Shown: piece by piece, positions 11,254-50,675 of the stretch
How the letters are laid out: every line of letters starts with the position of its first letter
Position numbering within the stretch: position 1 is the stretch's first letter
Source of the DNA: a virus
IMG/VR virus record: IMGVR_UViG_3300046837_000115
Coordinates: 1 to 56,031 of that record
Strand: one strand, 5' to 3'
Length of the DNA: 56,031 nt
Position numbers and translations under genes: made by a program
Notes under the pieces: model-generated
What the model saw: the letters and a program-made list of their open reading frames with translations, nothing else
Databases searched by the model: none
Told to the model about the DNA's origin: nothing

Positions 11254-12876
11254 GTGCCCAGCAACATAGGGTTCCAGCTCAACGCGTTCCAGGAAGACCC
11301 CTACGCCTCCGGCGCGGGCGCGCTCCCCAGCCTGGAAGCGTTCGGCACACCACGTATTGCGCAGCCGAGGAACCCGGTGGCGACGCTCGTCTGGGACAGC
11401 AACGGGTTCGAGGCCGGAACCGCGCTCAGCACCTATTTCTTCACGACCGGCGGGGCGCCAATCATCGACACCGCCGTCTCGAAGAACGGCCAAAACTCGT
11501 TCAAGGTCAGCGGCGATCCGTCCTGGGGGAGGAAGAGCCTCCCGGCAGGGCAGAAGGTCGCCGTCGCGAGGTTCTACATCAAGCTCGACACGCTCCCGTC
11601 GGCCGGTATCGAGCTAGCCACGCTCGGCGGCTTCCGGCTCGGCTACGACAGCACCCACCAGTCATTCGGTGTTATCGCCGGGACATCGCAGGACTTCACC
11701 GGGAACCACAGCGCCGCGATCTCGGCCGGGCGGTGGTATCTGATCGACATGCGGGCAGACCAGTCGGCATCCACGTGGGTGTTGGACTGGCAGATCGACC
11801 GTGTCGCCCAGACGCAGCTCGCGTTCGTGAACCCTGCCGCGAACGTCTCCGACATCTACCTCGGACACACAACCGGGTTCCCGGTGTCGGTCACGGCCCA
11901 CTACGACGACGCCGTCGTGTCGAACACGTGGGCGGACTACCCGATCGGCGCACCTGCCCTTCCTATCACCCCGGCCGGTATCCCGGCCCCTACCATCTCG
12001 ACGTTCCTGACACCGTGGGCGCAGGCTGACGCGTTCGGCGTCATCGGTCTCAACCGGACGGGGACGACCCCTAAGACGATCTACCCGGCCGGTATCCCGG
12101 TCGCGTCCGGGTGGGGTGACGACTGGGGGGACAACTGGGGCGGCGGCGGCCGGTTCGGCACGGCGCGGGCGGTGTTCGTCACCCGTCCGCCTGGGTTAGC
12201 GAGCGTCACGGCGTTCGGGACACCGACACGGGTGGTCATCCCTGCCGGTGTCAGCGCGACAGGGCATATCGCGTCGCTTGAAGCTTTCGGGACAGCGCAC
12301 GTTCTGATCGTTGTCAGGTCGACAGGGCTCGCGTCGAAGGAAACATTCGGGATCGCGCACCCGACCCGGATCGTTCGAAACACTGGCGCTCTCGGGTCGG
12401 CGGAAGCGTTCGGGACGCCGACCCGGGTCGTTCCCGGCCTGATCCTCTCCGCCGGGCAGATCGCCTCGCTCGAAGCGTTCGGGGCCGCGACCATCCTCGG
12501 CGGTGTCGCCCCACCTGCACCATCGCTACCGGCCCGGCTGTTCATCGGCGACGGCGGCCTGGTCGTGCTTGCATACGGCGACCAGCCACTCTCCGCCGCG
12601 AGGATGGCCGACGGGGCCGCCGCCATCGCGCAAGCGGACGCAGCAGTCGCTGCAGCTGTCGTCGACGGGCAGCTCGGGCTCCTCATCGTGACCGACAGGG
12701 TGACGTCGCTACCGCGGGTGTTCATGAGCGACGCCAGCCTCGCCTCACTGTTGACCGCGGATCTAACCGGCGCAGTCACGTTGTCAGACGCGGCTCTCGT
12801 CGTCTCCCTGTCTGAACTGGTCGGGGTGCGGTTAGCGCCGCTCGACACGTCGGCGACCCTCAACGTGGTGGCGTGA
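11254..12876 (+). CDS. EAFGT-repeat structural protein with lectin-like insert (short copy)
   Basis: 540 residues, GTG 11254 behind AAGGAGGA. It opens with AFQED and one EAFGT unit. Residues about 48-230 then form a non-repetitive jelly-roll-like domain (VWDSNGFEAGTALS, FYIKLDTLPS, GRWYLIDMRAD, AHYDDAVVS). About seven more AFGT-type units follow to residue 415, with a Trp/Gly/Asp-rich interruption (GWGDDWGDNWGGGG). The C-terminal 120 residues are Ala/Val/Leu-rich and different. It is a paralogue of 9169-10911 in which a probable sugar-binding domain has been inserted. Confidence 0.65.
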   Translation: MPSNIGFQLNAFQEDPYASGAGALPSLEAFGTPRIAQPRNPVATLVWDSNGFEAGTALSTYFFTTGGAPIIDTAVSKNGQNSFKVSGDPSWGRKSLPAGQKVAVARFYIKLDTLPSAGIELATLGGFRLGYDSTHQSFGVIAGTSQDFTGNHSAAISAGRWYLIDMRADQSASTWVLDWQIDRVAQTQLAFVNPAANVSDIYLGHTTGFPVSVTAHYDDAVVSNTWADYPIGAPALPITPAGIPAPTISTFLTPWAQADAFGVIGLNRTGTTPKTIYPAGIPVASGWGDDWGDNWGGGGRFGTARAVFVTRPPGLASVTAFGTPTRVVIPAGVSATGHIASLEAFGTAHVLIVVRSTGLASKETFGIAHPTRIVRNTGALGSAEAFGTPTRVVPGLILSAGQIASLEAFGAATILGGVAPPAPSLPARLFIGDGGLVVLAYGDQPLSAARMADGAAAIAQADAAVAAAVVDGQLGLLIVTDRVTSLPRVFMSDASLASLLTADLTGAVTLSDAALVVSLSELVGVRLAPLDTSATLNVVA

Positions 12877-12888
12877 AAGGAGGGCCTG

Positions 12889-13191
12889 TTGCCGAACGTC
12901 TACGACATCGGAGACCTCGTCCGGGTGCAGGCCACGTTCCTCGGGTCCGGCGGGCTGGCCGACCCGTCCCAGGTGTGGTTCCTGATCCGTGACGGGGCCG
13001 GGAACAACGCCACCCACCGGTACGGACTGACCCCGTCCGCGATCTTCCGGGCCACCGTCGGCGGCTACTACATCGACGTCGACGTCGCGTCGTCCGTAGG
13101 CGACTGGCGGTACCGGTGGGAAGGCACCGGCAACAACGTCCAGGTGGCGGAAGAGTCAACGTTCAACGCGCGACGCACCTTCAAGCTGTGA
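12889..13191 (+). CDS. ~100-residue partner protein of the repeat protein (copy 2)
   Basis: 100 residues, TTG start at 12889 chosen because AAAGGAGG lies just upstream and because the protein then aligns end to end with its paralogue at 10914-11237 (YDIGDLVR, ADPSQVWFLIRD, GGYYIDV, YRWEGTG, AEES). The next gene starts inside its stop (GTGA). It completes the second copy of a two-gene module. Confidence 0.6.
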   Translation: MPNVYDIGDLVRVQATFLGSGGLADPSQVWFLIRDGAGNNATHRYGLTPSAIFRATVGGYYIDVDVASSVGDWRYRWEGTGNNVQVAEESTFNARRTFKL

Positions 13192-13991
13192 GCCCTGTTG
13201 TTGATGGAGTCTTCGTCCCCCGCACCCCGCTCGTCACCGCCGAACAGCACGTCGGTTTCCTCGCTATCGACACCCACATTCTCACGCGTCGCCGCCGTCT
13301 TGAGTCTGAAGGTGCGCCGTTTGCTCGACGAATCGGATACGTCACCGCCCACCTCGGCATCACCCCCGCCGGAATCCAGGAACGACTCGCCGACCGGCTA
13401 GCGGCAGGTCTCGAAGAGACAGCACGGTTCGGGTACAGGACGGTGCAAGCTGAGGTACGCAGCCTCCGCCGGGCGCGACCTCGGGACGCCCGACATGCGG
13501 CCCGCGCCGGTCTTCTTCTCCCGGACGCGGGCCGCTACGGGCGCCTCGCCATGCAAGGACTCCCCGGCCTGTTGCTCGTGATGAAACACCGCGGCATCGT
13601 CGTCGCCGCCGCCGTCTCGCAAGCCGCCTCCGACGCCGCGAAGAAAACCGAGGACAAGACCGCCGCCTCCCTGGCGGCCATCGCCGCAGCGCAACGGCAG
13701 CTACACAACGGCGTGCTCGAACTCATCGGGGAAGCCCTAAACATGGGGCGTACAGCGGGGGCGCTCGCGATGCCGGAACCGCCGACGTTCGCGATGCGGT
13801 CCGAGCAGCTCGACGGCAACACGTGCGACTCCTGCAACGAACTGCACGGCACCATCGTCGAGGTCGACTCCGCCGACTACTACAGCTACATGCCGCCGGA
13901 GGACTGCGAAGGCGGCGGCCGCTGCCGCGGTGTCTACGTGTACGGCGACGCCGCGGCGGATGTCTCTGCGCCAGTTGAGGAGGCCGCATGA
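13188..13991 (+). CDS. minor head protein, MuF-like
   Basis: 267 residues, start GTG 13188 overlapping the previous TGA. A long helical, Ala/Arg-rich middle part precedes the C-terminal motif RSEQLDGNTCDSCNELHG (about residues 205-222), the hallmark of the phage Mu gpF/SPP1 gp7 minor head family, followed by Cys-rich CEGGGRCRG. Known members sit near the portal inside the capsid and help in assembly or DNA ejection. Here the gene is about 13 kb away from the portal gene, although normally it follows it directly. Confidence 0.8.
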   Translation: MSPVVDGVFVPRTPLVTAEQHVGFLAIDTHILTRRRRLESEGAPFARRIGYVTAHLGITPAGIQERLADRLAAGLEETARFGYRTVQAEVRSLRRARPRDARHAARAGLLLPDAGRYGRLAMQGLPGLLLVMKHRGIVVAAAVSQAASDAAKKTEDKTAASLAAIAAAQRQLHNGVLELIGEALNMGRTAGALAMPEPPTFAMRSEQLDGNTCDSCNELHGTIVEVDSADYYSYMPPEDCEGGGRCRGVYVYGDAAADVSAPVEEAA

Positions 13992-14188
13992 ACTGGAAGT
14001 TCCACATAGTCAGCGCCATCCCGCGCAGCGCCCCCAACTGGTTCATGCGGATCCCCGTCTACGCGCAAACACAGACCCACGCTGCTATTACCGGGCGGAT
14101 CGTCGCCGAGGTCACCGGCGCCCGATTGTGGGACGCCCGGGCTTTTTTCGCCACCGGACTGAAGGAGCCAGATGACAACGACGACTAA
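13988..14188 (+). CDS. small hypothetical protein
   Basis: 66 residues, ATG overlapping the previous TGA (ATGA at 13988). Mixed alpha/beta composition, acidic tail (EPDDNDD), no motif. It overlaps the next start by 17 bases and so is part of a tightly coupled head operon. Function unknown. Confidence 0.55.
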   Translation: MNWKFHIVSAIPRSAPNWFMRIPVYAQTQTHAAITGRIVAEVTGARLWDARAFFATGLKEPDDNDD

Positions 14189-14360
14189 GACGCACAAGGC
14201 GACCGCCAAGCCGGTCGACGACCCCGAATTCGTCGCCGCCTACGGCGGCGCGTACCAGGCGTCATGCGGATGCGGCTGGACGGGTGAGGTACGCAGCCGT
14301 CAAGTTCGGGCGCAGGCCGAGGCCGACGGTCACGTCGCCGCAGAGAAGGAGGACTCATGA
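14172..14360 (+). CDS. small protein with CxC motif
   Basis: 62 residues from ATG 14172. The middle segment ASCGCGWTGEVRSR resembles one half of a zinc ribbon, and the flanks are charged. It overlaps the following protease gene by 4 bases. Similar short 'CGCGW' proteins are common in phage head operons, but their role is not known to me. Confidence 0.55.
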   Translation: MTTTTKTHKATAKPVDDPEFVAAYGGAYQASCGCGWTGEVRSRQVRAQAEADGHVAAEKEDS

Positions 14361-15805
14361 ACGATGCCCCACGTCTCGCGGAGTTCGTCGCGCTCGGCGC
14401 CGAAACGATTGACGCTCAGGGCCGCCAGTGGATCGAGGTGATGCCAACCGCGGACAAGATGCGGAACGGACCGTGGTTCTTCACCGTCGAAGCAGGCGAC
14501 CTCGAAACGTACGCGCAGTCGATCCGCGACAACCCCGACAAGATCCCCGTCGACTACGAGCACGCCGCCCAGACAGGCAGGGCGGCCGGGTGGTTCACCG
14601 GTCAGGCCGAAGTCCGCGACGACCGGTTGTGGGCGGAGGTGCAGTGGACACCGAAAGCCAGGCAGGAGATCACCGACGGTGAGTACCGGTTCATCAGCCC
14701 TGAGTTCACGTTCAACCAGAAGGACGGGAAGACCGGCCTGATGACGAGGGCGAAGGACATCATCGCGGCCGCCCTGACGAACAAACCGGCGTTCAAAGAA
14801 CTCGCGCCCGTCGCCGAGCTGCTGGAGTCGGACGAGGTCGACGCGATCTCAGACCTGTACGGAAGCGAGGTCGCCGACATGGTGCTCGCAGCGATGGGTG
14901 GCGACCTCGAGAAGGTGCGGGCCGCTGTGTGGTCGACCGCTTTCGTGAACGACCTGCCTGACTCGTCGTTCTTGCACGTCGAAGGTGGCGGCACGAAGGA
15001 CAGCAGCGGGAAGACGACGCCCAGATCGCTGCGGCATTTCCCGGTCAAGGACGCGTCGGGCAAGGTCGACATGCCGCACGTCCGCAACGCGCTCTCCCGG
15101 ATCCCGCAGTCGAGCCTGCCTGCCAACGTAAAGGCTCAATGCACGAGCGCGGCCCAGAAGATGATGTCAAACGCCGGGGGAAACCCCAGCGCCCAACTGG
15201 AAAGCGAGGCACCGATGAATGTCGAAGAGACCCTGAAGGCGCTGGGTATCGACGAGAGCGCCAGCGTCCCCGAGAAGGTGGCGGCTGTCATGAAGCAGAT
15301 GCAGGACGAGCTGCTAGTGAAGTCGGCCAGGATCGCCGAGCTTGAGGCTGCCGAGGGTGAGTCTGTGAAGCTGAACGACAGGATCGCCGAGCTTGAGGTT
15401 CGTGATTGGCAGCGCGAAGTCGACGTGCTGCTTTCGAAGGCCATCGACAACGGGCAAATCTATCCGCGTGAGAAGGACACATACGCGGAGATGTTCAGCA
15501 CTAGCGGGGAGCGCGTGGTTGAGCTGAAAAAAATCTTGGCGTCGCGTGCCCCGGGAACCGCTGTTTCTCGCAAGGAGCGGGGATCTGGCGGCGGGTCGCC
15601 GCTGTCGTTCGACGATCCTGACATGGTCGCGATCGCGTCCGAGCTTGGCATCAAGGACGACGGAGACCCGCTCGATGCCGACTCTGCCTTCCTGCACATG
15701 CGTGCGATGGCGAGCCTGAAGGAGCAGGGCAAGGGCAGCAACTACACCGCCGAGGAGTACTCGGCAGCTCTCGACGATGCGCAGCGTGTCGGTGTCGCTT
15801 ACTAA
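14357..15805 (+). CDS. prohead protease/scaffold, Mu gpI-like
   Basis: 482 residues. Residues 1-150 match the Mu I-type prohead protease pattern: IPVDYEH (D66-H69), AAGWF, WTP-A, ITDGEYRFISPEF with S114. Here H69 and S114 are candidate catalytic residues. Residues about 203-270 form a second domain I recognise from phage proteins (RSLRHFPVKD ... HVRNALSRIPQS). Residues about 285-375 are predicted coiled coil, as expected for a scaffold, and the C terminus is acidic/helical. The protein would template procapsid assembly and then be cleaved. It precedes the decoration and capsid genes, as in Mu-like head operons. Confidence 0.8.
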   Translation: MNDAPRLAEFVALGAETIDAQGRQWIEVMPTADKMRNGPWFFTVEAGDLETYAQSIRDNPDKIPVDYEHAAQTGRAAGWFTGQAEVRDDRLWAEVQWTPKARQEITDGEYRFISPEFTFNQKDGKTGLMTRAKDIIAAALTNKPAFKELAPVAELLESDEVDAISDLYGSEVADMVLAAMGGDLEKVRAAVWSTAFVNDLPDSSFLHVEGGGTKDSSGKTTPRSLRHFPVKDASGKVDMPHVRNALSRIPQSSLPANVKAQCTSAAQKMMSNAGGNPSAQLESEAPMNVEETLKALGIDESASVPEKVAAVMKQMQDELLVKSARIAELEAAEGESVKLNDRIAELEVRDWQREVDVLLSKAIDNGQIYPREKDTYAEMFSTSGERVVELKKILASRAPGTAVSRKERGSGGGSPLSFDDPDMVAIASELGIKDDGDPLDADSAFLHMRAMASLKEQGKGSNYTAEEYSAALDDAQRVGVAY

Positions 15806-15835
15806 CCCGCTGCCCTAACCAGAAGGAGATCAGTC

Positions 15836-16243
15836 ATGGCTTTTGAAGGCCAGAAGCACTCCAAGACCTACCTTGCAGGGACGACGATCCCGGCGATGTG
15901 CCCGGTCGCCTACATCGGGAACATCACCGCCGGATCCGCGCAGGTTGCTGAGAAGGTGTGGCCTGTCGGATCGTCCAGCTTCCCGGTGCTCGGCGTCGCC
16001 CGCGCATCGGCCGCCGCCGGACAGCCCGTCGAGGTTGACCTGCCTCACTCGTACGTGAAATGCGTCGCCGTCGCCTCGATAGGCGCTGGGGCACTGGTCG
16101 CGGTCGGCTCCCTCAACGGCGCCCTCGGCCTGATCGCTATCGGGGGCGCGTCCGCGATCAAGTACACGGTCGGCACCGTCGAGCAGCCCGCCGCCGCCGC
16201 CGACGTCTTCACGGTGCTGCTGAACCCGCAGAACATCATCTAA
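15836..16243 (+). CDS. capsid decoration/stabilisation protein
   Basis: 135 residues, ATG 15836 after AGAAGGAGAT. Small, Ala/Val/Gly-rich and beta-rich (VAYIGNITAGSAQ, VLGVARASAAAGQPVEVDLP, YTVGTVEQPAAAADVFTVLL). Composition and motif order fit the DUF2190-type small decoration proteins that sit between protease and major capsid genes. No catalytic residues are expected. Good contextual support. Confidence 0.7.
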   Translation: MAFEGQKHSKTYLAGTTIPAMCPVAYIGNITAGSAQVAEKVWPVGSSSFPVLGVARASAAAGQPVEVDLPHSYVKCVAVASIGAGALVAVGSLNGALGLIAIGGASAIKYTVGTVEQPAAAADVFTVLLNPQNII

Positions 16244-16272
16244 CGCCCGCCCGCTAAAGGAAGGATAGAGAG

Positions 16273-17280
16273 ATGCCTAACCCGACCACGGTGGGCGTTG
16301 TCCATGTCAGCGCACCACTCACGAACCTCGCCCGGCTGTACCGTCCGCTGGACGAAGGCTTTATCGCCGACGAGATCGTCCCACGGCTCCCTGTCGTCCA
16401 CGAGACCGACCTGTACTACACATGGTCGCAGGGAGAGTTCTACGGGACGGAGGTCACCGACCTGACCGCCGACCGCACCGAGCCACGCGAGGTCGACTTC
16501 AACGCAACCACGGCAAGCTACTCGGCCGTCAGGCGCGAGCTTGCGTGGACGATCTCGCAGCGGGAGCGTCAGAACGCCGACAACCAGCTGCGGCTGCAGG
16601 AAGTCAAGCAACTCGGAGTCCTCGGCCGCCTTCAGATGCTCAGGGAGATGCGGTGCGCCGCGATCCTGAACGCGTCCGGTGTCTCGACCGTGATCAACGG
16701 CGAGACGTTCACGGGCGGCTTGAACTCCGGTGCTACGGCGTCGAAGACGGCGTTCTGGGATGGTGCGTCGACGACGTTCCAGCAGATCACCGGCGACATC
16801 ATCAAGGGGATCACCGGGATGCGGCAGGCGATCGGCTTGCGTCCGAACATGATCGTCGTCCCCGCAGCCGTCGCTGAGGGACTGAACAAGTCGCTGTACT
16901 ACAGCGGCACCGCTGGCCCGTTGGTGCAGTACTCCGGACGGCCGGAAGAACTCCCGGCCTACAGCCAGTATCCGCTGCTCCCGTCCCAGATCGCCGGGAT
17001 GCGTGTGCTGGTTCCGGGGAACATCAAGAACACCGCGAACGAGGGCCAGACCGCCTCCTATTCGGACATTTGGGGCGAGACCGTCCTGCTGGCGTACGTG
17101 ACTCCGGGTCCGGCGATGGAGACCCCATCGCTCGCCTACACGTTCACGGCCGAGTCACGCCAGACCCGGACGGCACGCGACGACATCCGCCGCCTAGACT
17201 GGTACGCCGTCGGCGAGACCTCTGTCGAGAGCGTGGTCGCCCCGGCGGCCGGTTGGACGATCACCGACACCCTCACCTAG
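16273..17280 (+). CDS. major capsid protein
   Basis: 335 residues, ATG 16273 behind AAAGGAAGG. It lies directly after protease and decoration genes and has the size and composition of HK97-fold capsids of the Mu/lambda gpE type: helical N-terminal arm, VVHETDLYYTW, a long helix (RQNADNQLRLQEVKQLGVLGR), PNMIVVPAAVAEGL, and the C-terminal motif DDIRRLDWYAVGE. Alternative roles are unlikely given order and length. Confidence 0.85.
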   Translation: MPNPTTVGVVHVSAPLTNLARLYRPLDEGFIADEIVPRLPVVHETDLYYTWSQGEFYGTEVTDLTADRTEPREVDFNATTASYSAVRRELAWTISQRERQNADNQLRLQEVKQLGVLGRLQMLREMRCAAILNASGVSTVINGETFTGGLNSGATASKTAFWDGASTTFQQITGDIIKGITGMRQAIGLRPNMIVVPAAVAEGLNKSLYYSGTAGPLVQYSGRPEELPAYSQYPLLPSQIAGMRVLVPGNIKNTANEGQTASYSDIWGETVLLAYVTPGPAMETPSLAYTFTAESRQTRTARDDIRRLDWYAVGETSVESVVAPAAGWTITDTLT

Positions 17281-17292
17281 AGGGGAGCCTTC

Positions 17293-17580
17293 ATGCCGAA
17301 CCCTGTCGGGTTTGAGTTCCAGTCGTTGGCGTCCGGTGTCGTGGGATTGTTGGCGTCGGTGCCGACCACCGCGGATTCGTTCCGGGTCCGTGTCGAGTTG
17401 GCGTCGTGCCGGTGGCTGTCGTCTGCGACACCGAACGCCTCCGTAGGGCTGTTGATCACACCCGGGGACGCGCCGATGCATTTCGCGTTGGCGTCCCCGG
17501 CGCAGTTCAAGTTGTTCCCCTTGGTGGCTGCGCAGTTCACCGTGCAGTACTTCGCGGGCAGCGACCAGTACAAGCTCTAA
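17293..17580 (+). CDS. small capsid-adjacent protein
   Basis: 95 residues, ATG 17293 with AGGGGAG upstream. Beta-rich, hydrophobic, no motifs. It follows the capsid gene by 12 bases. Could be a second decoration protein or head-completion factor; the assignment rests only on position. Confidence 0.55.
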   Translation: MPNPVGFEFQSLASGVVGLLASVPTTADSFRVRVELASCRWLSSATPNASVGLLITPGDAPMHFALASPAQFKLFPLVAAQFTVQYFAGSDQYKL

Positions 17581-17593
17581 GGGAGGCCCAGAT

Positions 17594-17785
17594 ATGGCTC
17601 GACGGAGCACGTCGTACAGCGTGTACGACAGCAAGGGCCGCCTCCTCGGGGGCGGCAAGAACGTCGACCGCGACACCGCCGTCAAGGTGAAAGACCGGGC
17701 GGTCCAGTCCGGTATGCATGACGTCCAGATGATCCGCAGAGGCCAAGAGGGCAAAGAGCCCGGGCCGCGGGTCCTCGACGCCTAA
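17594..17785 (+). CDS. small basic hypothetical protein
   Basis: 63 residues, ATG 17594 after GGGAGG. Charged, with YSVYDSKGRLLGGGKNVDRDTA suggesting a small beta-hairpin/helix fold. Last gene of the capsid transcript before the stem-loop region at 17787-17894. Function unknown. Confidence 0.5.
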   Translation: MARRSTSYSVYDSKGRLLGGGKNVDRDTAVKVKDRAVQSGMHDVQMIRRGQEGKEPGPRVLDA

Positions 17786-17786
17786 C

Positions 17787-17894
17787 TGCGAAGGAAGGGG
17801 CGCTACTGCCTGGCGTCCCTTCCCGTCGCAGGGCTGGAGGACAGCGGTGTAACCCTCATCTGGGCGGGCTCGCACCGCTGTCCTCGAACCCTGC
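17787..17894 (+). other. two adjacent stem-loops downstream of the capsid genes
   Basis: Within the 148-base gap after the capsid operon there are two inverted repeats. The first pairs 17787-17802 with 17812-17830 (TGCGA and GGAAGGG cores, one bulge). The second is strong: 22-base arms at 17828-17849 and 17873-17894, with 13 contiguous pairs in GAGGACAGCGGTG, two mismatches, and a 23-base loop. The two overlap slightly, so they could be mutually exclusive. There is no U run, so this is not a classical intrinsic terminator. It may attenuate or stabilise the abundant capsid mRNA, or encode a structured RNA. Confidence 0.55.
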
Positions 17895-17933
17895 CCAGAT
17901 ACCAATCGCGACACGTGAAGGAGTTAAGCCCAG

Positions 17934-20900
17934 ATGATCGTTCCGAAGATTGCTGCCTGCATGATCGTGAAGAACTCCGAGCAGGTGATCGAGAAGGCGC
18001 TGGAGTCGATCCGCCCCTACGTGGACGGGATCTTCATCTACGACACCGGGTCGACCGACAACACCCGAGACGTGCTGGCCGCCCTGGCGAAGATAACGCA
18101 CTGCGGCAAAGACGACGAGGGCGACCTGATGGCCGCCGCACCGATCACCGTGAAACAGGGCGAGTGGCGCGACGACTTCTCGTGGGCGCGTGAGCAGTCG
18201 TTCGCGATGGCGAACGATCCGGGGGAAGACTTCACCCACTACCTGTGGCTGGACGACGACGACGAGATCGTCGGCGCCTCCAACCTCCGCCACCTCGCGG
18301 CGAACATGCCGGAGGACATCCACGCGCTGTCGTTCTACTACGACTACGCCCGCGACGAGGACGGGAACAACGTCTGCCAGCTGTGGCGGGAACGGCTGAT
18401 CTGGCGGCACGCCGACTACCACTGGGTCGAGCCCGTCCACGAGTGCTACGTCCCCCGAGAAGGACAGGCACGACTGTCACCGGTCCCTCCGGGCGTGACG
18501 CACTGGAAGCACCATCGGCCAGCCACCGACCGGTACGACCCGTCCAGGAACCTCGACATCCTTCATGCCTGTCGCGAGAAGGCGGAGGCCGCTGGGGAGG
18601 AGATCAGCCCACGCATCCTCGCCTATCTCGGCACCGAGTACATGGCGAAAGGCGATTTCACCGAGGCCGTCAAGTGGCTCGACCTGTACACCAAGCGTGA
18701 CGACGCCGGGTGGTCGGACGAGCGCTGCCAGGTACGGCACAAGCTCGCGCTGTGCTTCCGCGCGATCGGGAACACGGAGGCGGCGATCAACTGCGAGTTC
18801 ACCGCGATCCGTGAACGCGACACATGGGCGGAGAACTCGATCGGGTTGGCGGCGTGCTTCGCGTCGATCGGCCGGTGGGACCGGGCGGAACACTGGGCGA
18901 AGCAGGCGCTCGCGATCGGCCTGCCGCAGTCACCGCTGATCCTGAACCCGGTCGAGCACAACCTGTTCCCGTGGCTGATCCTCACCGACGCGTACCTGAA
19001 CCGGCAGTCGTACGAGGAGGCGCAGGCCGCCATCGCGAAAGCGCTGGAGGTCGCGCCGATCGACGACGTCAAGGAGAAAAAGCAGGAGGTCGACGTGGCG
19101 GCCAACACCGCCGAACTCGTCGGCGCCGCGCTGATGCTCCGGGAGATCCTGATCCGGCACGACGAAAACCTCAAGGCGTACGACCTGCTGAAATCGGTGC
19201 CGTACGTGATCGAGGACGACCCGAGGATCGTGCACGCCCGCTCGTCCGCGCGCCTTAACATCATCCACGCGGTCGAGCCGGACGAGTACACCCGCTGGTA
19301 CAAGGACGTCCCGAAAGAGTCCACGGTCGGCGACGAGCACGTCGACCAGATAGACCAGTACATCGAGCGGGTCGCGTACCTCGCCGAAGGACTCGCAGAG
19401 CAGGAGACGGAGCTAGGCAGGAAGCCGGAGGTTCTCGACCTCGGCTGCAACGACTTCTGGTTGGAGTGCTTCCTCTGGAAACGCTACGGCATCCACGCCG
19501 ACGGGGTCGAGTTGAACAAAAAGTCGTTTGACCTCGGGCTGAAACGGCGGCGGAAATTCAAGGCGCCCGGCAAGCTACACCACGGCAACCTTCACGACGC
19601 CGCCAAGATCACCGGCAAGAAATACGACGCCGTCGTCCTGTTCGAGGTGCTCGAACACGTCCCTGACATGTCCGCCACCCTCGCGGTGTGCGAGTCGATG
19701 CTGAACCCCGGCGGCCGCGTGTACCTGACGACGCCGAACGGTGCGTTCGACCGCGGCATGATCGACTGGGAACGCGTCGAGCCGAAGGGACACCTCCGCG
19801 CGCTCACGGCAGGGCAGCTGGCCGACCTGCTGCTCACACGCGGGCAGATCGACGACTACCGCGTCCACTGCAACGGACGGCTCACGTTCGCCCGATACAA
19901 GGCACAACCCGCGAAATCGACGGTGAACTTCTACCTGGGCGGCCAGTGGGAGCCCTGGAGCCCGGCGTCGTTGAAAGACGGCGGCATCGGCGGGTCAGAG
20001 ACCGCCGCCGTGCAGGTCGCGACCCGGCTGGCCGCCAGGGGCCACCGGGTTCGCGTCTTCTCCAGCTCCGAGGAAGGACTGGCCGGTGGGGTGCTGTACC
20101 GGCCTCACACGTCATGGGACCCGACGGAGACCACCGACCTCCTCATCGTGTCGCGGTTGGCGCACGTGTTCGACAACCCGATCGGCGCCAGGAAGACCGC
20201 GCTCTGGTGCCACGACCACTCCTACCCGAACGAGCTGACGGCGGAACGCGCGGGGAAGATCGACCATATCGTCACCCTGACCGAGTGGCAGCGGGCGAGG
20301 TTCGCCCGCCTCTACCCGTGGACGGAGAACCGTCTGCGGGTGATCGGGAACGGCATTTCCTACAGGGAGATCGACAGCGGGGAGCCGCGCTATCCGAACG
20401 CCTACAGGCCTTTCGGTGAGCGGCTCCCCCGTGTCGTCTTCAGCCACTCCGCCGACCGTGGCCTGGACGTGATGCTCGACCTGTGGCCGCGGATCCGCGA
20501 GCGGGTGCCGGACGCAGAACTCCACGTGTTCTACGGGTTCAACACCATGGACAGGCTGCTGCCGTTCAGCCCGAACCTCGCCGCCTACAAGGGGGCGCTG
20601 CTGGAGAAGGCGAAGGAGCTTGGCGGCGAAGAGGGCGGCGTGTTCCTCCGCGGCCGTGTCGGACAACTCGAACTCGCCGAGGAGATGCAACTCGCCCGGA
20701 TGGAGGGCTACCCGACTGCGTTCCTCGAAACGTTCTGTATCACCGCCCTTGAAGCGCGGGCGGCCGGGCTGCCGATGCTCACCTCCGACCTCGGCGCGTT
20801 GCGTGAGACCGTCGGCGACCACGGGATCCTCCTGCCATGGGGTCCGGACGAGGACGAGCCCTGCAACCAGACCCCGGAATATCAGGACCGCTGGGTTCAT

Positions 20901-21062
20901 CTGGCGTGCGACCTGTTGACAGACGAGACGGTCTGGAACCACTGGCACGAGTGCGCTCTCCTTGGCGCGGAGCTTCTGGATTGGGACCACAAGGTCGCCA
21001 GCTGGGAGCTGTTGGTCGGTGGCGCGACGGCGAAGGCACGGAGGGAGAAGGTAGCCGCGTGA
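17934..21062 (+). CDS. glycosyltransferase-methyltransferase-glycosyltransferase fusion
   Basis: 1042 residues, ATG 17934 after GAAGGAG. Residues 1-190: GT2-type domain (IAACMIVKNSEQVIEKAL, DTGSTDNT, and a metal-binding DDDD run at D107-D110). Residues about 195-400: TPR-like helical repeats. Residues about 490-640: class I SAM methyltransferase (VLDLGCND, LFEVLEHVPDM). Residues about 660-1030: GT-B/GT4-type domain (GGIGGSETA near residue 683, VIGNGI, SHSADRGLDV, and the EX7E pair E932/E940). Such a protein could build and cap a methylated glycan. It sits between capsid and connector genes, so virion-protein glycosylation is a reasonable inference, but host surface modification is also possible. 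Confidence 0.85.
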   Translation: MIVPKIAACMIVKNSEQVIEKALESIRPYVDGIFIYDTGSTDNTRDVLAALAKITHCGKDDEGDLMAAAPITVKQGEWRDDFSWAREQSFAMANDPGEDFTHYLWLDDDDEIVGASNLRHLAANMPEDIHALSFYYDYARDEDGNNVCQLWRERLIWRHADYHWVEPVHECYVPREGQARLSPVPPGVTHWKHHRPATDRYDPSRNLDILHACREKAEAAGEEISPRILAYLGTEYMAKGDFTEAVKWLDLYTKRDDAGWSDERCQVRHKLALCFRAIGNTEAAINCEFTAIRERDTWAENSIGLAACFASIGRWDRAEHWAKQALAIGLPQSPLILNPVEHNLFPWLILTDAYLNRQSYEEAQAAIAKALEVAPIDDVKEKKQEVDVAANTAELVGAALMLREILIRHDENLKAYDLLKSVPYVIEDDPRIVHARSSARLNIIHAVEPDEYTRWYKDVPKESTVGDEHVDQIDQYIERVAYLAEGLAEQETELGRKPEVLDLGCNDFWLECFLWKRYGIHADGVELNKKSFDLGLKRRRKFKAPGKLHHGNLHDAAKITGKKYDAVVLFEVLEHVPDMSATLAVCESMLNPGGRVYLTTPNGAFDRGMIDWERVEPKGHLRALTAGQLADLLLTRGQIDDYRVHCNGRLTFARYKAQPAKSTVNFYLGGQWEPWSPASLKDGGIGGSETAAVQVATRLAARGHRVRVFSSSEEGLAGGVLYRPHTSWDPTETTDLLIVSRLAHVFDNPIGARKTALWCHDHSYPNELTAERAGKIDHIVTLTEWQRARFARLYPWTENRLRVIGNGISYREIDSGEPRYPNAYRPFGERLPRVVFSHSADRGLDVMLDLWPRIRERVPDAELHVFYGFNTMDRLLPFSPNLAAYKGALLEKAKELGGEEGGVFLRGRVGQLELAEEMQLARMEGYPTAFLETFCITALEARAAGLPMLTSDLGALRETVGDHGILLPWGPDEDEPCNQTPEYQDRWVHLACDLLTDETVWNHWHECALLGAELLDWDHKVASWELLVGGATAKARREKVAA

Positions 21063-21253
21063 AAGCCTCGCCTCTCAACGGGTTCGTGAAAGCAGACCCC
21101 GCACTGCTGCTCGCGTGCGGGCATGTCGCCTCCGGCTGGACGGACATCGTCTGGCAGCCGCACGGCGAAACGAACCAGGTGCCGTTCTTCGTGTGCCGTG
21201 AGGGCTGCGGAGCGCAGGACTGGGTTCCCGACCCCGAACTCGTCACCGCCTAG
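21059..21253 (+). CDS. small Cys-containing protein
   Basis: 64 residues, GTG 21059 overlapping the previous TGA by 4 bases. ACGH and CREGCG provide three cysteines and a histidine spaced as in a small zinc-ribbon (LLACGHVASGW ... FVCREGCGAQDW). Translationally coupled to the glycosyltransferase fusion and ends exactly where the connector gene starts. Role unknown. Confidence 0.5.
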   Translation: MKASPLNGFVKADPALLLACGHVASGWTDIVWQPHGETNQVPFFVCREGCGAQDWVPDPELVTA

Positions 21254-21748
21254 ATGCCGTACCTCGCAGCAACCGAACTAACGTCGATTCTGCCGTGGGG
21301 AGCGACGATCGGCGACACGACGTATCCGCTCAATCTCGGGGAGGTCGCCTCCATCTGCGACGAGGTGTCCGCCGAACTCGACGGCGCCGTGTCCGCGGCC
21401 GGGTACACGGTCCCGATCGGCACAGCGGCACCGCTCGCGCTGTCCCAGATGAAACGGTGGACGAAGTTCGGCGCCGGGGCGATCGTCATGGAGACCCTGT
21501 TGCCGAACGTCGGCGGTGTAGGCGGCAAGTCGTCGCCGATCGCCGACAGGTGGCAGACCGCGTACGACAACGCGATCAAGGCGATCGAGGACGGCAAGTT
21601 CGCGCTCCCAGGTGTCGCCAAGGACTCGGGGGAGACGGGGCGGGCGCTGCCGCGAAGCTACACGACGTCGCATCCGTCCGATGACGTGTTCGTGTCCGGG
21701 TATCAGAGCGGGGCGAGCGTGTTCATCCCGATCGACTGGATGCCGTAG
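21254..21748 (+). CDS. head-tail connector/adaptor protein
   Basis: 164 residues, ATG 21254 directly after the previous stop. The helical pattern at the N terminus (AATELTSILPW ... EVASICDEVSAELDGAVSAAG) and the helices around QMKRWTKFGAGAIVMETLL fit gp6-like/Mu gp36-like head completion proteins. Order (capsid, connector, morphogenesis protein, terminator, tail tube) supports this. Confidence 0.65.
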   Translation: MPYLAATELTSILPWGATIGDTTYPLNLGEVASICDEVSAELDGAVSAAGYTVPIGTAAPLALSQMKRWTKFGAGAIVMETLLPNVGGVGGKSSPIADRWQTAYDNAIKAIEDGKFALPGVAKDSGETGRALPRSYTTSHPSDDVFVSGYQSGASVFIPIDWMP

Positions 21749-22249
21749 ATGCCCAGGGGTGTCGGCCCGACGTCGAGCGGCAAGGGCGGCGTCGCGATCG
21801 ACTTCGAGCCCCCCATTGAGTTCATCCTCAAGCAGGCCGGGGCGTTCCGGCGCAGGCTGGAGGAGTTCGCGTCGTTGTGGGAGCTGTTCAAGCCGATCAT
21901 GGGAGCCTACGAGCAGGAGGTGTTCTCGACCCACGCTCACGGCGCGTGGCCCGAACTGGCCCAGTCGACATTGAGGTACAAGACCGGCGAGCTGATGGTC
22001 GAGTCGGGAGCTTTGCGAGCGTCGCTCGTCGACCCCGGGCAGGCCATGCATATTCAGGGTCGCAGTGCCTGGTACGGCACCGAGGTCGAGTACGCCCATT
22101 GGCACCAGGACGGAGGGTCGATCCCCGGCCGACCGCCGCAGCGTCAGCTGATCGAGGATCCGTTCCCGACCAGCACCCGACGGGAGCTTGAGGCGGCAAC
22201 GATCACATGGGTCAACGTGCTCGCACGTGAGACGTGGGGGCTGATCTGA
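21749..22249 (+). CDS. virion morphogenesis protein, Mu gpG/HK97 gp10-like
   Basis: 166 residues starting at ATG 21749 with no gap. The motif TGELMVESGALRASLVD and the following AWYGTEVEYAHWHQDGG and IPGRPP-RQLI are characteristic of the phage tail-completion/virion morphogenesis family. Known members join head and tail. The family assignment is fairly firm. Confidence 0.75.
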   Translation: MPRGVGPTSSGKGGVAIDFEPPIEFILKQAGAFRRRLEEFASLWELFKPIMGAYEQEVFSTHAHGAWPELAQSTLRYKTGELMVESGALRASLVDPGQAMHIQGRSAWYGTEVEYAHWHQDGGSIPGRPPQRQLIEDPFPTSTRRELEAATITWVNVLARETWGLI

Positions 22250-22250
22250 C

Positions 22251-22781
22251 ATGGCGCCCGCCCAACTTCAGCTGTCCGAGCCGGTCATCGACGCCGCCCT
22301 CACGAAACTCCGGGCGGGCATGGCGTCCAGGCTGCAGGCGATCAACACACAGTTCGCGGACAACATGCCGCTATGGATCCCGAGCGATTCCGACTTCTAC
22401 TTCGCCGGTGTCGCCGACAGCGCCCCGATACCGCTCGTCGTCGTCACCGACGGAGGCACCGGAGACCAGGGAAGATTCGCCGAGGAAGGGCCGCACTCGC
22501 TCGCGATCCAGCTCCAGCTCGTGATCCTCGTGTGCGACCAGGATGCCGACCGGCAACGGCTCGCCCGGAAACTCCTGCGGCTAGAGCGCGCCGTCACCGA
22601 AGTCCTCTACGACGACGAACCGAAAGAACAGCTCGTCGTCACCGTCGACGGCGTCACGAACTACCCGTATATCCGTCCGGCCCGTCTCGTACCTGGGCCG
22701 GTGTTCAACCCGGAGGACGACTCAAGCATGTTCCGGCAATGGAGGATCGTCGTCTTCGACGTCCTGAAGTACGAGAACTAA
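22251..22781 (+). CDS. putative tail terminator/completion protein
   Basis: 176 residues, ATG 22251. The order of predicted helix and strands (helical N terminus, then VVVTDGG, LQLVILVCD, helical ARKLLRLERAVTEVL, WRIVVFDVLKYE) fits small tail-terminator proteins, which cap the tail tube. The next gene is the tail tube. The assignment is from size and position. Confidence 0.55.
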   Translation: MAPAQLQLSEPVIDAALTKLRAGMASRLQAINTQFADNMPLWIPSDSDFYFAGVADSAPIPLVVVTDGGTGDQGRFAEEGPHSLAIQLQLVILVCDQDADRQRLARKLLRLERAVTEVLYDDEPKEQLVVTVDGVTNYPYIRPARLVPGPVFNPEDDSSMFRQWRIVVFDVLKYEN

Positions 22782-22796
22782 AGGAGCTGATGACAC

Positions 22797-23786
22797 ATGG
22801 CGATCTCGACCGCCGACCCGAACGCCTTTCTGGCGGTCGGGATGCAGTCCGCCCTAGGGACGCCGCAGACAACAGCAGGGAAGCTGCGGTTCGCGAAGTA
22901 CCTCTCGGGCACGAACTTCAACGACGCCCCCGAGGTCGTCTTCCTCCGCGAGGGCGGAGACGGCCTCGACTGGGGGTTCGGCTACAAGAAGAGCCAGAAG
23001 ACGGAGGGGCAGATCGTCATCAACCTCCGTCCGGAGATCACCGGACAATTGTTCCAGGGGATGCCCGCCGGTGCGACATGGGGCGGAGCCTCCCTGATGG
23101 CACAGCATATTTTCATGACCGGCCACGCGTCGTTCCCTTGGATGACGCTGTTCTGCCAGTTCCCCGGCTCGACGATGATCCACATGATCTCCGACGTCCT
23201 GTTCACCGGGTTCACCGTGGAGGCCATGTCGGGGGAGCCGCTGAAGCTGACGCTGCCGTTCATCGGCATCAACCACGGCGCCTCAGCGGCGGCGATCGTG
23301 CCGACGTACATCAACGAGAACCCGTTCATCTACCACTTCAACCCGTCCTACCAGATCGACGGCGCGGCCGACTCGGCGATCAACAGCTGGAAGATCGACG
23401 CCGGTCTCGGGATCGAAGAGCTGCAGGCGCAGTCGTTCAAGCTCGACGACATCGCCGTCCAGAACCGCGACTTCAACTTCGAGGTCACCCGTAGGTACAC
23501 GAACTCGTCGCAGTGGTCGAAGATCCTGTTCGGAGGCGGCATCGTCGCCACGAACACGGTGCCGACCGGGGCGTTTCGTGCCTACAACAACTACGGTGCC
23601 ACCCCCGCGTTCGCGAGTATCGACTTCAACCTGCCGCTGATCGGGTACGCGGACGACAACCTGACCGAGCTGGACCCGGACGGCAAGACCGTCTACGAGA
23701 CAGTCACCGGGAAGGCGCTGAAGTCAGCGACGCACGCGATGATCGTCACGCTGAACAACACGCACGCCTCCGCCTACGCCTCCTAG
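22797..23786 (+). CDS. major tail tube protein
   Basis: 329 residues, ATG 22797 after AAAGGAG. Begins FLAVGMQSALGTPQT, which is typical of long tail-tube proteins; beta-rich middle (VFLREGGDGLDWGFGYKKSQKTEG), and C-terminal helix-strand region. It is followed by a bidirectional terminator, then chaperone and tape-measure genes, the expected order. High contextual support. Confidence 0.75.
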   Translation: MAISTADPNAFLAVGMQSALGTPQTTAGKLRFAKYLSGTNFNDAPEVVFLREGGDGLDWGFGYKKSQKTEGQIVINLRPEITGQLFQGMPAGATWGGASLMAQHIFMTGHASFPWMTLFCQFPGSTMIHMISDVLFTGFTVEAMSGEPLKLTLPFIGINHGASAAAIVPTYINENPFIYHFNPSYQIDGAADSAINSWKIDAGLGIEELQAQSFKLDDIAVQNRDFNFEVTRRYTNSSQWSKILFGGGIVATNTVPTGAFRAYNNYGATPAFASIDFNLPLIGYADDNLTELDPDGKTVYETVTGKALKSATHAMIVTLNNTHASAYAS

Positions 23787-23808
23787 CCTGCCGGAGAACC
23801 TAGCGATG

Positions 23809-23857
23809 ACGGCCCCGTCTGCCCTCGCCTCAACAGGGCGGGCGGGCGGGGCCGTTT
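23809..23857. terminator. intrinsic terminator between convergent genes
   Basis: Perfect 9-bp outer stem ACGGCCCCG (23809-23817) with CGGGGCCGT (23847-23855), further G/C pairing inside, followed by TTT. It lies between the tail-tube stop and the stop of the leftward membrane gene, so it can serve both strands, although the U run is short on each side. Confidence 0.7.
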
Positions 23858-24086
23858 AGCGTCCGCCGAATACGTCCTCGTGGAATTGCTCCCACCTGTC
23901 ACGCGGCCCATGCTCTGTCTCGGGTTCAAGTGGCGGGAGCAGGAAGATCATCAGGACGCCGATCCAGCCGAGCAGCAAACCCCACGCCCACCCGTTCCGG
24001 TTCCTGACGTCGCCTTGTGCGACGCACACCCAGACGGGGAGAATCCATAGGACGGTGACGGCGACGAGTACCTCGATGACTGTCAT
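23856..24086 (-). CDS. small two-helix membrane protein (candidate moron)
   Basis: 76 residues, leftward, ATG ending at 24086 behind a GGGAGG site. Residues about 3-24 and 33-52 are strongly hydrophobic (VLVAVTVLWILPVWVCV; GLLLGWIGVLMIFLLPP), with a short RNRNG turn between and a charged tail of about 24 residues. The pattern resembles PLDc_N-like and superinfection-exclusion proteins. It is the only leftward gene in 20 kb, lies between tail genes, and has its own probable promoter and terminator, so it is likely an independently expressed inserted gene. Confidence 0.75.
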   Translation of the reverse strand: MTVIEVLVAVTVLWILPVWVCVAQGDVRNRNGWAWGLLLGWIGVLMIFLLPPLEPETEHGPRDRWEQFHEDVFGGR

Positions 24087-24106
24087 GTCGCCTCCCTTCT
24101 GACTTC

Positions 24107-24112
24107 ACTATA
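24107..24112 (-). promoter_or_regulatory. probable -10 element for the leftward membrane gene
   Basis: The leftward strand reads TATAGT here, 21 bases before the ATG and just upstream of GGGAGG. No good -35 hexamer is seen at the standard distance (TGGGCG), so strength is uncertain. Its presence supports independent expression of the antisense membrane gene. Confidence 0.4.
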
Positions 24113-24134
24113 CCTCCCTTTTAGGAGCCCGCCC

Positions 24135-24614
24135 ATGCCCGCCCGCATCGTGAACATGGACGACCTCGTCCCCGACGAGCTTGTCTTCAACTACCACGGC
24201 AAGGACTACCGACTGCCCGGCGACATCGACACAGAGACGGTGTTCACGCTTGAGCAGTTGCTTATCGAGATGGCCGAGGCGGAGGGGGATGTCCTCACCG
24301 CGATGGCGGCCAACGTCGAGTCGACTTCGGCTGCCGCTACGAAGAAGGCGCAGGCCGACCAGAAGAAGGCGAAGGAGCATCAACGCCGGGTGACCCGGAA
24401 GACGGAGGCGGAGATCCTCGGCCTGTTCCAGGTCAACCACCCGGAGCTTGAGAAGCTGCCGTTCGGCGTGGTCGGCTTCACGGTCGTGCTCACCTATGTG
24501 CTGGCCGAACTCGGGTTCGCTCAGGCGCCCGCACCGGACCCTACGCCGCCGAGGCCGAACAGGGAGACGAGGAGAGCGAAGTCTCGGCCATTGAATACAT
24601 CGCGGTCCTCGTAG
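24135..24614 (+). CDS. tail assembly chaperone, short form (gpG-like)
   Basis: 159 residues, ATG 24135 after AGGAG. Acidic/helical N-terminal part and a Lys/Ala-rich helical centre, then LPFGVVGFTVVLTYVLAELGF and a Pro/Arg-rich end. It lies between tail tube and tape measure, where all long-tailed phages encode a chaperone pair. A second frame overlaps its end and looks like the gpT extension reached by -1 frameshifting. Confidence 0.75.
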   Translation: MPARIVNMDDLVPDELVFNYHGKDYRLPGDIDTETVFTLEQLLIEMAEAEGDVLTAMAANVESTSAAATKKAQADQKKAKEHQRRVTRKTEAEILGLFQVNHPELEKLPFGVVGFTVVLTYVLAELGFAQAPAPDPTPPRPNRETRRAKSRPLNTSRSS

Positions 24615-24802
24615 ACGAGTTCAGGTTCCAGCCGGACTACTGGCGACGCGGCGGCGGCAAACCACGCGGCGGCATGCCTTGGCGTGAGTTCCGCGCCTGG
24701 ATGACGCTCGCGGCGAAACGCAGGCTGGGACGGACGGTCGCGCAGCGGAACGAAGAGCTGCGGCAAGAGTGGGTGCAGCGCAAGCCGGAGGGGAGGCGTT
24801 AG
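24452..24802 (+). CDS. -1 frame extension of the tail assembly chaperone (gpGT-like)
   Basis: In the -1 frame relative to the short form, the sequence is open from 24452 to TAG 24800-24802 and encodes AEAEQGDEESE, then VSAIEYIAVLVDEFRFQPDYW and a basic helical tail; the tape measure starts on the next base. There is no ATG, GTG or TTG in this frame before about 24674, inside the conserved-looking part, so independent initiation is unlikely. The slip must lie between 24452 and 24614. A CCC-T next to the GAC codon near 24537-24541 would permit tRNA-Pro re-pairing, but no canonical X XXY YYZ heptamer is evident. Coordinates give the open extent, not the product start. Confidence 0.65.
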   Translation, partial: EAAVRRGRLHGRAHLCAGRTRVRSGARTGPYAAEAEQGDEESEVSAIEYIAVLVDEFRFQPDYWRRGGGKPRGGMPWREFRAWMTLAAKRRLGRTVAQRNEELRQEWVQRKPEGRR

Positions 24803-27800
24803 ATGGCCGAGTCGACCGTCAGGGTGATGTTCCTCGGCGACGCCGCCGGACTATCCGCCGCGACGAAGAAGGGCGAGGCCAGCTTCGGCGCGCTCGGTCG
24901 GGCCGCGAAACTCGCTGGGACGGTGATGGCGGCCGGGCTCGGTATCGCGGTCGTTGAGTCGGTCAAGCTCGCCGTCCAGTTCCAGAAGTCGATGACGATG
25001 ATCCAGACCCAGGCGGGGGCGTCCGCGGCCGAGGTGAAGAAGCTGTCCGGGGAGGTGTTGAAGCTGGCGCCGAAGGTCGGCACCGGCCCCGACGCGCTAG
25101 CGCAAGGGCTGTTCCATCTGGAGTCGCAGGGTCTCCGGTCCGCGAAGGCGATGGACGCGTTGAAGATCGCCGCCGAAGGGGCGAAGGTCGGCAACGCGAA
25201 CCTCGAAGACGTCACCAACGCGTTGGGTGCTGTGATGGTGTCCGGGATCAAGGGCGCCGGTGACCTAAACAACGTGATGGGCGAGCTGAACGCCACGGTC
25301 GGCGCCGGTGACATGCGGATGCAAGACCTCGCCGACGCGCTCGGGACAGGTCTTGCCGCAAAGGCCAAGGTCGCCGGGGTCTCGATCAGGGACATCTCTT
25401 CCGCCCTCGCCGTGTTCGGTGACAACAACATCCGGGGCGCCCAGGCCGGGACGCTGCTCGGTTCGACGATCAGGATCATGGCCGCCCCGTCCGGTGCTGC
25501 CGCGAAAGCGCTGAAGAGCGTCGGGATCTCCGCCACCGAACTCGCGGACGACATCAGGAACAGGGGGCTGGTCGCCGCGATTCAGGACCTGAAAAGTCAC
25601 CTTGAGTCCGCTGGGCTAACAGCGTCGGAGCAGGCCCGCGTGTTGACGCAGGCGTTCGGCGGCCGCCAGTCGACCGGCGTCCAGATCCTCGTCGGGCAGT
25701 TGGAGCGGCTGAAGACGAAGGAGCAGGAGGTCGCGGACGGCGGTAACAAGTTCGGGGCGGCGTGGAAGGCAACCACGGACACGCTGAAGTTCCAGCTGGA
25801 CAAGACGAAGGCGTCGCTTGAGGCGGCCGCGATCCCGATCGGGAACCTGCTGCTCCCGGCTTTGGGGGCGGCAGCCGGGAAGGTTGCCGATTTCGCGGGG
25901 GCGGTGCAGGCGCACATGCCGGAGATCAAGGCGGCATTCGGGGACATCTCGTCGGCGATCGGGGATGTGGGGTCCAAACTTGCTGGTCTCGCCACGTCGC
26001 CGACGGGGATGTCGGCGATCGGTGCGATTGCGGCGGGCGGACTGACCGCCAAAGGCATCGTCGGGGTCAGTGGCGCGATCGCGGGACTCGGCAGCATGTT
26101 GGGCAGGCTCGGCCCGTGGGGACTCGCCGCCTCGGCCGCTATCGGGTTGATCACGTTTGCGTTCATCCGCAGCCGCTTCCAGGTCAACGAGTTCGACGAC
26201 GCCGTCAAGAAGATCCAGAGCACACTCTCAGGCACTCAAAGTGCTGTAGCGCAACATACGGCCGCGGTGAACCAGCTCTCCCAGGCGCATTTGAACGTGA
26301 AGACGTCGGGGGAGCAGCTGCGGGCGGCGGAGCAGGCGCTGGGGGCCTTGTGGCGCGCCGGGAAGGTGGGAACGGATGAGTACACCAAGGCGCAGGATGT
26401 TCTGACGCAGGCCAAGATCAACTCGCGGGTGGCGTCCGCAGAACTCAAGGCGGCAGAGCAGAACGAGGGGAATACGCGGAAAGCGCAGACTAAGGCGATC
26501 AGCGATCAGAAGGATGCGTTTGCGGCGCTCGACAAGAAGTCCGCCGACCTGTCTGGGAGATACGACCGGCTGATAGCCCAGAACAAAACCTTGGCGCAGG
26601 GCGGCTCGGTCGTGTCGCAGCAGCAACGCACCTACAACAAGGAGCTGATGGCGGGGTTGGTAGACAACTACGCGTCGTCGATCTCCAAGCTGCGCGGCGC
26701 GCTGGGGCTGTCCGGGGTGAGCGCCAGAGACGTCAGCAAAGCCGTGCACGAGATCGCCAACCAGATCCACGGGATCCCTCCGCTGAAAGAAGTGCTGGTG
26801 AGGTTGAGGGTGCAGCAACTGTTCGTGACCATATGGGACACGATCCGGCGTACAACCACGCAAGTAACAAAGCCTCTTGCGGGTAGGGCGGGCGGCGGGT
26901 TCGTGCCCGGGTCGTCGCCGGGGGCGCCGACGTTGATCCTGGCGCACGCGGGCGAGGTTGTGTTGAACCAGCAGCAGCAGGAAGCGCTCGGAGGTCAGCA
27001 GGCGATCGCGTCGATGTTCGGGTTCACCGGCCAGGAGGGGCCGGGGTTCGCGTCCGGCGGCATCGTCCGCAGCCGGAAAAGCCCGCACCACTCCCCGAAA
27101 TACACGAAGCCGCTGCGGCGCGCGACGGCGGCGGTGAACCGCGTGAACGCGGCGTTGTCGGCGATCGCCGACGTGATCCAGCGCACCGACCGCTCCTACG
27201 GGCAGCAGGTCCGTGAGGACGACATCACGCAGGAGCAGTTCCTTGTTGATGTGCCGGACGGGAAGGGCGGCACCGTCACCGTCCTCGACAAGGACGCCGT
27301 CGCGCAAAGGTTGAAGGAGATCGCCGGGCTTGTCGGGATGCGAGGCGACATGCTCGCCCTGTTGGACGAGAAGAAGGCCGATTTGGACGAGGCCGTGAAG
27401 GACATGACGATCGCGATCGCTGCGGTGAAGAAGGCGATCGAGGAGGAGCAGAAGGCGATTGCGGCGGACACGAAAGAGATCAAGGAGCTGAACGACGACA
27501 TCAAGAAGCGGCAGGCACGGGTTGACGATGACCGGAAGGAGATCCGGGAGCAGAACAAGGCGATCGCCGACCTCCGCGACAAGGAGAGCGGGGCGCGGAA
27601 GCGGCTGGCTGCGGAGCGGGCGAAGAAGAAGCCGGACAAGGCCGTGGAGGCGAGGATCGTCGCGGAGATCGCCGGGTACGAGAACCAGATCGACAGCCGC
27701 GACGACCGCAAGAAGGTGCTGTCCGACGATGTCGCGACCCAGATCATCGGTGAGCGGAAGGACCGGAACAGGATCAGTGCGGTCACCGCCGACCGTGAGA

Positions 27801-29926: not shown

Positions 29927-29927
29927 C

Positions 29928-45161: not shown

Positions 45162-45198
45162 CGTGCTCGGCCTGCCGCCGGTTCCGTCCCTGCCTCCG

Positions 45199-50466: not shown

Positions 50467-50675
50467 CCGGCCTCGACGACATCCGGCGGCGGCTCGAAGG
50501 AACACCCGCGCTCCGCGCGTTCCCAGACATCCTCGCCGACGTGGAGCGGCTACTCGCCATCGCAGAAGCGGCGAGCAACCTTTACGACTGCGCTACCGTC
50601 AGCGACTTCCTGATCGGCGCCTGGCACGCGCTTGATGAGGCATTAGTCGCCCTCGACGCGGAGGAACTCGCGTGA
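50463..50675 (+). CDS. small helical hypothetical protein
   Basis: 70 residues, GTG 50463. Predicted all-helical and acidic (IRRRLEGTPALRAFPDILADVERLLAIAEAASNLYD). No motif. Translationally coupled to the zinc-finger gene before and to the radical SAM gene after it. Confidence 0.5.
   Translation: MTGLDDIRRRLEGTPALRAFPDILADVERLLAIAEAASNLYDCATVSDFLIGAWHALDEALVALDAEELA

Follow-up and report, generated by a model that had tools for sequence, protein, structure and literature searches.

A GT2-TPR-methyltransferase-GT4 fusion protein encoded behind phage capsid genes is a probable virion glycosylation enzyme

The stretch of viral DNA analysed here (hereafter the window; 56,031 nucleotides, IMG/VR record IMGVR_UViG_3300046837_000115) contains a head-gene operon with the order head maturation protease, cement-like protein, major head protein, 95-aa ORF, a large fusion gene, neck and tail completion proteins, tail protein and tape measure. 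The protease (14357-15805) and the tape measure (24803-28489) were recognised with Pfam and PHROGs, and a terminase and a Mu-like portal are encoded near the other end of the record (52636-55518). The cement/decoration-like protein (15836..16243, + strand) shows a weak match to Phage_cement_2, under the cut-off of that family, and the major capsid (head) protein (16273..17280, +) matches phrog_1005 (3.9e-42). Both are candidate acceptors for the enzyme described below; no obvious glycosylated tail was found in the capsid protein. The fusion gene (17934..21062, +), delimited from its ORF, Pfam matches and an AlphaFold2 model, is separated from the capsid gene by 653 bp that include the 95-aa ORF (17293..17580, +; without family match, and not conserved in this position among relatives), a possible 63-aa ORF and hairpins. 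The initial annotation placed the fusion gene beside the capsid gene in the head operon: the two are close neighbours in the same operon but, given this gap, do not abut.

Other genes of the window deserve mention. In the region from the window start to the head genes, two long tail-like proteins (9169-10911 and 11254-12876, both +) are encoded that consist of numerous degenerate repeats of a unit such as 'GAIASLEAFGTARVV', and several relatives encode a related repetitive protein 5' of their head genes. A radical SAM protein (50672-51376, +; PF04055) weakly matches a QueE-like family of phage proteins. A LAGLIDADG-like homing endonuclease segment apparently splits, in frame, a gene for an N4/N6 DNA methyltransferase (44908-47553, +): residues ~400-600 of the gene product match a phage endonuclease family and the methyltransferase resumes near residue 830; Pfam gave no match to an intein domain.

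The fusion ORF starts with ATG preceded by AAGGAG, has no internal stops and encodes a protein of 1042 aa with four domains, all matched in Pfam above the gathering cut-offs. The N-terminal domain (residues ~1-200; 17934..18533, +) matches Glycos_transf_2 (residues 9-130, 1.2e-9) and carries the motifs DTGSTD (37-42), DDDD (107-110, the DXD motif) and HE (169-170); this combination of Pfam match and DXD motif assigns it to glycosyltransferase family 2 (GT2), with a GT-A fold. It is followed by a TPR helical-repeat domain (residues ~201-470; 18534..19343, +), delineated by Pfam (TPR_2, TPR_1 and TPR_14 across residues ~225-375), the structural model and fold matches, which is likely to be the part that binds an acceptor protein. 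The middle domain (residues ~471-655; 19344..19898, +) matches Methyltransf_23 (residues 481-637, 3.2e-16) and possesses the SAM-binding motif expected of a class I SAM methyltransferase (DLGCND 502-507, VELN 525-528). Finally, the C-terminal domain (residues ~656-1030; 19899..21023, +) matches Glyco_transf_4 (residues 685-808, 1.3e-8) and Glyco_trans_1_4 (residues 841-969, 1.4e-9), and combines a GT-B fold with GGIGGSET (683-690) and E932-x7-E940, as in glycosyltransferase family 4 (GT4). In PHROGs, the first 377 residues match a beta-1,4-glycosyltransferase family of the category moron and residues 744-975 match a glycosyltransferase family.

The AlphaFold2 model, built from an alignment with 20 diverse homologues, has a mean pLDDT of 89.5 and a pTM of 0.64, indicating that the domains are well defined and their relative placement less certain (an earlier model from 7 sequences, with a pLDDT of 60.2, was discarded). 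The Pfam matches, motifs and model thus bear out the initial reading of a 1042-residue chain combining GT-A, TPR, SAM methyltransferase and GT-B domains, for which domain search and structure prediction had been proposed as checks. Among solved relatives of the GT2-TPR half, GmaR is nearest by sequence (7.2e-11, over the start of GT2) and SunS/ThuS are nearest in their fold (7msp_B, with a TMt of 0.69 and an rmsd of 4.1 across 322 columns), so that this half, with GT2 followed by TPR and related by sequence or fold to these enzymes, groups with GmaR, SunS and ThuS. OGT and SPINDLY, which are TPR-containing protein glycosyltransferases, also score as fold matches to the fusion, with a poor overall superposition. 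The best fold match of the GT4 domain has a Z of 31.9 and an rmsd of 2.9, with 335 residues aligned to 6kih_A; the VIA-align matches cover this GT4 part alone, the other domains lying outside that comparison. In BFVD, the fold matches comprise further long glycosyltransferase fusions from uncultured phages, some of them named FkbM methyltransferases.

Three further metagenome contigs carry an identical fusion sequence, complete in two of them and ending at residue 928 in the third, and ten diverged full-length homologues with 45-58% identity and unchanged domain order were found in other metagenomic phage contigs. An additional relative with 29-32% identity also retains the domain order, its contig ending inside GT4. 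A megablast search of window positions 12000-30000 against phage records gave no matches. The catalytic motifs are intact in all 11 full-length phage sequences, that of the window among them, and the few changes are mostly conservative; loss of catalytic residues would have contradicted the initial annotation. The GT2 motifs DTGSTD, W.DDDD (DXD), RER and HE are kept (WLDDDD at 105-110, with WADDDD in one sequence), as are DLG(C/S)ND, (V/I)ELN and FEVxEH(V/L)PD in the methyltransferase and GGxGGSE, SADRG and E-x7-E in GT4. Mean pairwise identity is 0.54 for GT2, 0.51 for TPR, 0.53 for the methyltransferase and 0.56 for GT4, an even level along the chain indicating that no domain is in decay. 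We read this pattern, from the sequences, as all three active sites probably being under selection.

Wherever its position could be tested, in 13 lineages of 13, the fusion gene follows shortly after the major capsid gene, and the head-gene order around it is the same in every relative long enough to show it. Conversely, a search starting from the capsid gave 15 contigs whose capsid protein is 32-100% identical, three being identical to the window; the fusion follows closely in every one, as against neither of the two contigs with capsid relatives at 27-28% identity. The divergence of the capsid correlates moderately with that of the fusion (Mantel r 0.41, p 0.004); for the TPR domain alone, the correlation with the capsid is not significant (r 0.08), so that this domain may diverge independently of the capsid itself. 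The fusion displays the genomic features expected of a virion glycosylation system, enzymes encoded among head genes and linkage to the capsid gene; this linkage alone does not prove that the capsid is the substrate.

A very stable hairpin is also found in the gap between the capsid gene and the fusion in all 13 lineages (roughly -35 to -45 kcal/mol for 60 nt). In the window, strong hairpins occupy 17786..17893 (+), and in relatives they are located at 7914 (L005), 7674 (L006), 7365 (L008), 7614 (L009), 1483 (L016), 5368 (L017), 8251 (L020), 7059 (L021) and 10966 (L043). The stems are wholly different in sequence between lineages (nothing shared in MAFFT alignments); in the loop region, GGCTCC is kept in nine lineages and the window has GGGCTCG. 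By a rough composition estimate this is far above chance, although the motif was chosen after the fact. There is no U-tract, and Rfam searches of the window at the gathering threshold gave no matches. The hairpin is possibly a terminator, a processing site, a control element or a protein-binding RNA.

More distant homologues, retrieved from records of phages and collections of bacterial genomes, extend the association to three more PHROG capsid families, i.e., four with that of the window; four of these homologues are encoded within head operons. A GT2-TPR-methyltransferase-GT4 protein with 27% identity is encoded behind a phrog_1357 capsid gene (contig L023), whereas GT2-TPR-GT4 proteins with no methyltransferase in the chain are encoded behind phrog_1328 capsid genes (MW202718 and L026) and, at a distance of ~2.9 kb, behind a capsid gene of phrog_14242 (L035). 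The capsid profile of the window did not match the capsids of L023 and MW202718. L035 (JAHEYD010000029.1) is filed under Candidatus Nitrosotalea; it encodes tailed-phage terminase, portal, scaffold and capsid proteins and is therefore a virus, a provirus or a binning error. In addition, GT2-TPR homologues are encoded near the prohead protease gene in PaBG and between terminase and portal in ctf1B273. No capsid gene was recognised among the inspected neighbours of three bacterial-type relatives (L024, L025 and L027), indicating that the enzyme architecture is common to bacteria too. One of them, an Ignavibacteria contig, encodes a longer fusion, GT2-TPR-MT-GT-GT2-GT4 (L024:9971-14332), adjoined on the opposite strand by a gene for a collagen-like protein with G-x-Q/T repeats (L024:14982-16190), a possible substrate.

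Comparable enzymes are known from several systems. In cluster O (Corndog-type) mycobacteriophages, genes for an O-methyltransferase and three glycosyltransferases occupy the portal-protease interval, and modification of the capsid was suggested (PMC4351075); these enzymes are elsewhere cited as modifying capsid and tail tube (PMC11600133). As for the fusion, methyltransferase (Corndog gp35) and glycosyltransferases (gp36-gp38) are thus encoded among head genes, but as separate genes, between portal and protease and without TPR. Firecracker, used in place of Corndog for the enzyme comparison, encodes a TylF-type methyltransferase and small glycosyltransferases. The capsid of Che8 is reported to carry glycans (PMC11256854), and Che8 gp108 (neighbours gp109-gp110) is, according to Pfam, likewise a phage GT2-methyltransferase fusion; it differs in its length of 391 aa, its TylF-type methyltransferase, the lack of TPR and GT4 and the location of its gene at the genome's far end. 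Neither BLASTP nor domain profiles detected homology between the Firecracker and Che8 enzymes and the domains of the fusion, which suggests the same kind of system built from different enzymes. A further counterpart is the protein annotated as 'beta4glucosyltransferase' in MW202718 (Podoviridae sp. ctxSa4), the GT2-TPR-GT4 homologue two genes behind the phrog_1328 capsid gene; there, methyltransferases are encoded by separate genes further downstream.

Outside tailed phages, chlorovirus PBCV-1 A064R finishes a capsid glycan with two glycosyl transfers and a methylation in one chain (PMC9614988). It resembles the fusion, in its manner of working only, by uniting two glycosyltransferases and one methyltransferase in one viral polypeptide; it differs in size (638 aa), order (GT-GT-MT), lack of TPR, enzyme families and host (an alga), and it adds to the end of an existing N-glycan, unlike what we propose for the fusion. 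The trifunctional WsaE of Geobacillus stearothermophilus combines a methyltransferase, thought to cap the glycan, with two glycosyltransferases (PMC2943079), but its methyltransferase is N-terminal, it has no TPR and its target is a lipid-linked S-layer glycan. GmaR, which adds GlcNAc to flagellin and whose TPR was proposed to recognise or bind flagellin (PMC9638930), and SunS/ThuS share the GT2-TPR arrangement of residues 1-420; they lack methyltransferase and GT4 domains and act on bacterial flagellin and bacteriocin peptides. The type of system is therefore already known, since phages with reported capsid glycosylation encode these types of enzyme in separate genes or, in Che8, join GT2 and methyltransferase in a smaller fusion; new here are the GT2-TPR-MT-GT4 chain, its GmaR/SunS-like starter module and its fixed position behind the capsid gene.

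We propose that the fusion is probably a one-chain virion glycosylation enzyme, in which GT2 starts, GT4 extends and the methyltransferase methylates a glycan. The TPR superhelix would hold a phage structural protein, most likely the capsid or decoration protein and possibly the tail tube; the adjacent GT2 would add the first sugar to a side chain, as GmaR and SunS/ThuS do; GT4 would extend this sugar and the methyltransferase would O-methylate the glycan, perhaps as a cap. A methyl cap is plausible by analogy with A064R, WsaE and the O-methyltransferase of cluster O phages. The analysis shows the chain, its domains, the intact catalytic motifs, the conservation and the association with four capsid families; from these we infer the protein nature of the acceptor, the identity of the virion protein, the order of the steps, the sugars and the attachment of the methyl group to sugar rather than protein. 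The initial annotation had envisaged a single-chain builder acting on virion proteins or the host surface; its domain reading and single chain stand, and of its two targets the virion is favoured over the host surface on account of the association with four families of capsid genes. Points against our proposal are the capsid protein's lack of an obvious glycosylated tail, the only moderate correlation between capsid and fusion divergence, the failure to detect homology to the Firecracker and Che8 enzymes, and the occurrence of similar fusions in the bacterial contigs L024 and L025, where no capsid gene was recognised in the vicinity. More tentatively, the GT2-TPR and GT4 module, with an optional methyltransferase, may have been joined to at least four head-gene cassettes with different capsid families, the fusion of the window being a core head gene and an all-in-one cytosolic synthase that could start, extend and cap a glycan on a TPR-held virion protein with no lipid carrier.

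Among the alternatives, the one that survives best, though we consider it unlikely, is that the fusion acts on the host envelope, building or capping a methylated glycan there, e.g., to prevent superinfection. GT2 and GT4 enzymes are common builders of envelope glycans, which makes such a function possible. WaaG, TarM and PimA are among the fold neighbours of the GT4 domain, the N-terminal half falls with a moron-category PHROG, and the fused WsaE makes a bacterial surface glycan (PMC2943079). However, this function would leave the fixed position in the late head operon, behind four capsid families, unexplained; the closest resemblance of the GT2-TPR half is to protein glycosyltransferases, and no transporter, polymerase or sugar-nucleotide gene was recognised in the scanned parts of the window. 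It is less likely still that another structural protein (tail, fibre or the 95-aa product) is the acceptor and that the position behind the capsid gene merely reflects operon timing. Modification of both capsid and tail tube as reported for cluster O (PMC11600133), the long repetitive tail-like proteins (9169-10911 and 11254-12876) and the divergence of the TPR, which does not follow that of the capsid, would agree with it, but the fusion lies by the capsid gene and not by tail genes in every lineage, including those with unrelated tails, and the relatives show no conserved 95-aa ORF at this site.

Glycosylation of modified bases in phage DNA is very improbable: many phage glycosyltransferases target DNA (reviewed in PMC12619734) and the window encodes several DNA methyltransferases besides the radical SAM protein, but the TPR-GT2 architecture and the head-operon site argue against it, and the partner genes it would call for, base-hydroxymethylating or thymidylate-synthase-like, were not recognised among the scanned genes. 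Although the window derives from a metagenomic contig, there is next to no chance that the fusion is an assembly artefact or a chance ORF, given the identical copies in three more contigs, the ten diverged homologues with the same architecture and the confident structural model; misassembly is ruled out by the independent contigs bearing the fusion.

To our knowledge, virion glycosylation in phages is known mainly from mycobacteriophages. If the fusion is indeed a virion glycosylation enzyme, this modification would reach uncultured phages with several capsid types, and one soluble enzyme would suffice to start, extend and methylate a protein glycan. The glycans of mycobacteriophage virions are reported to lower antibody binding (PMC11256854). 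The presence of a GT2-TPR gene downstream of a capsid gene would then provide a simple sequence rule for predicting glycosylated phages.
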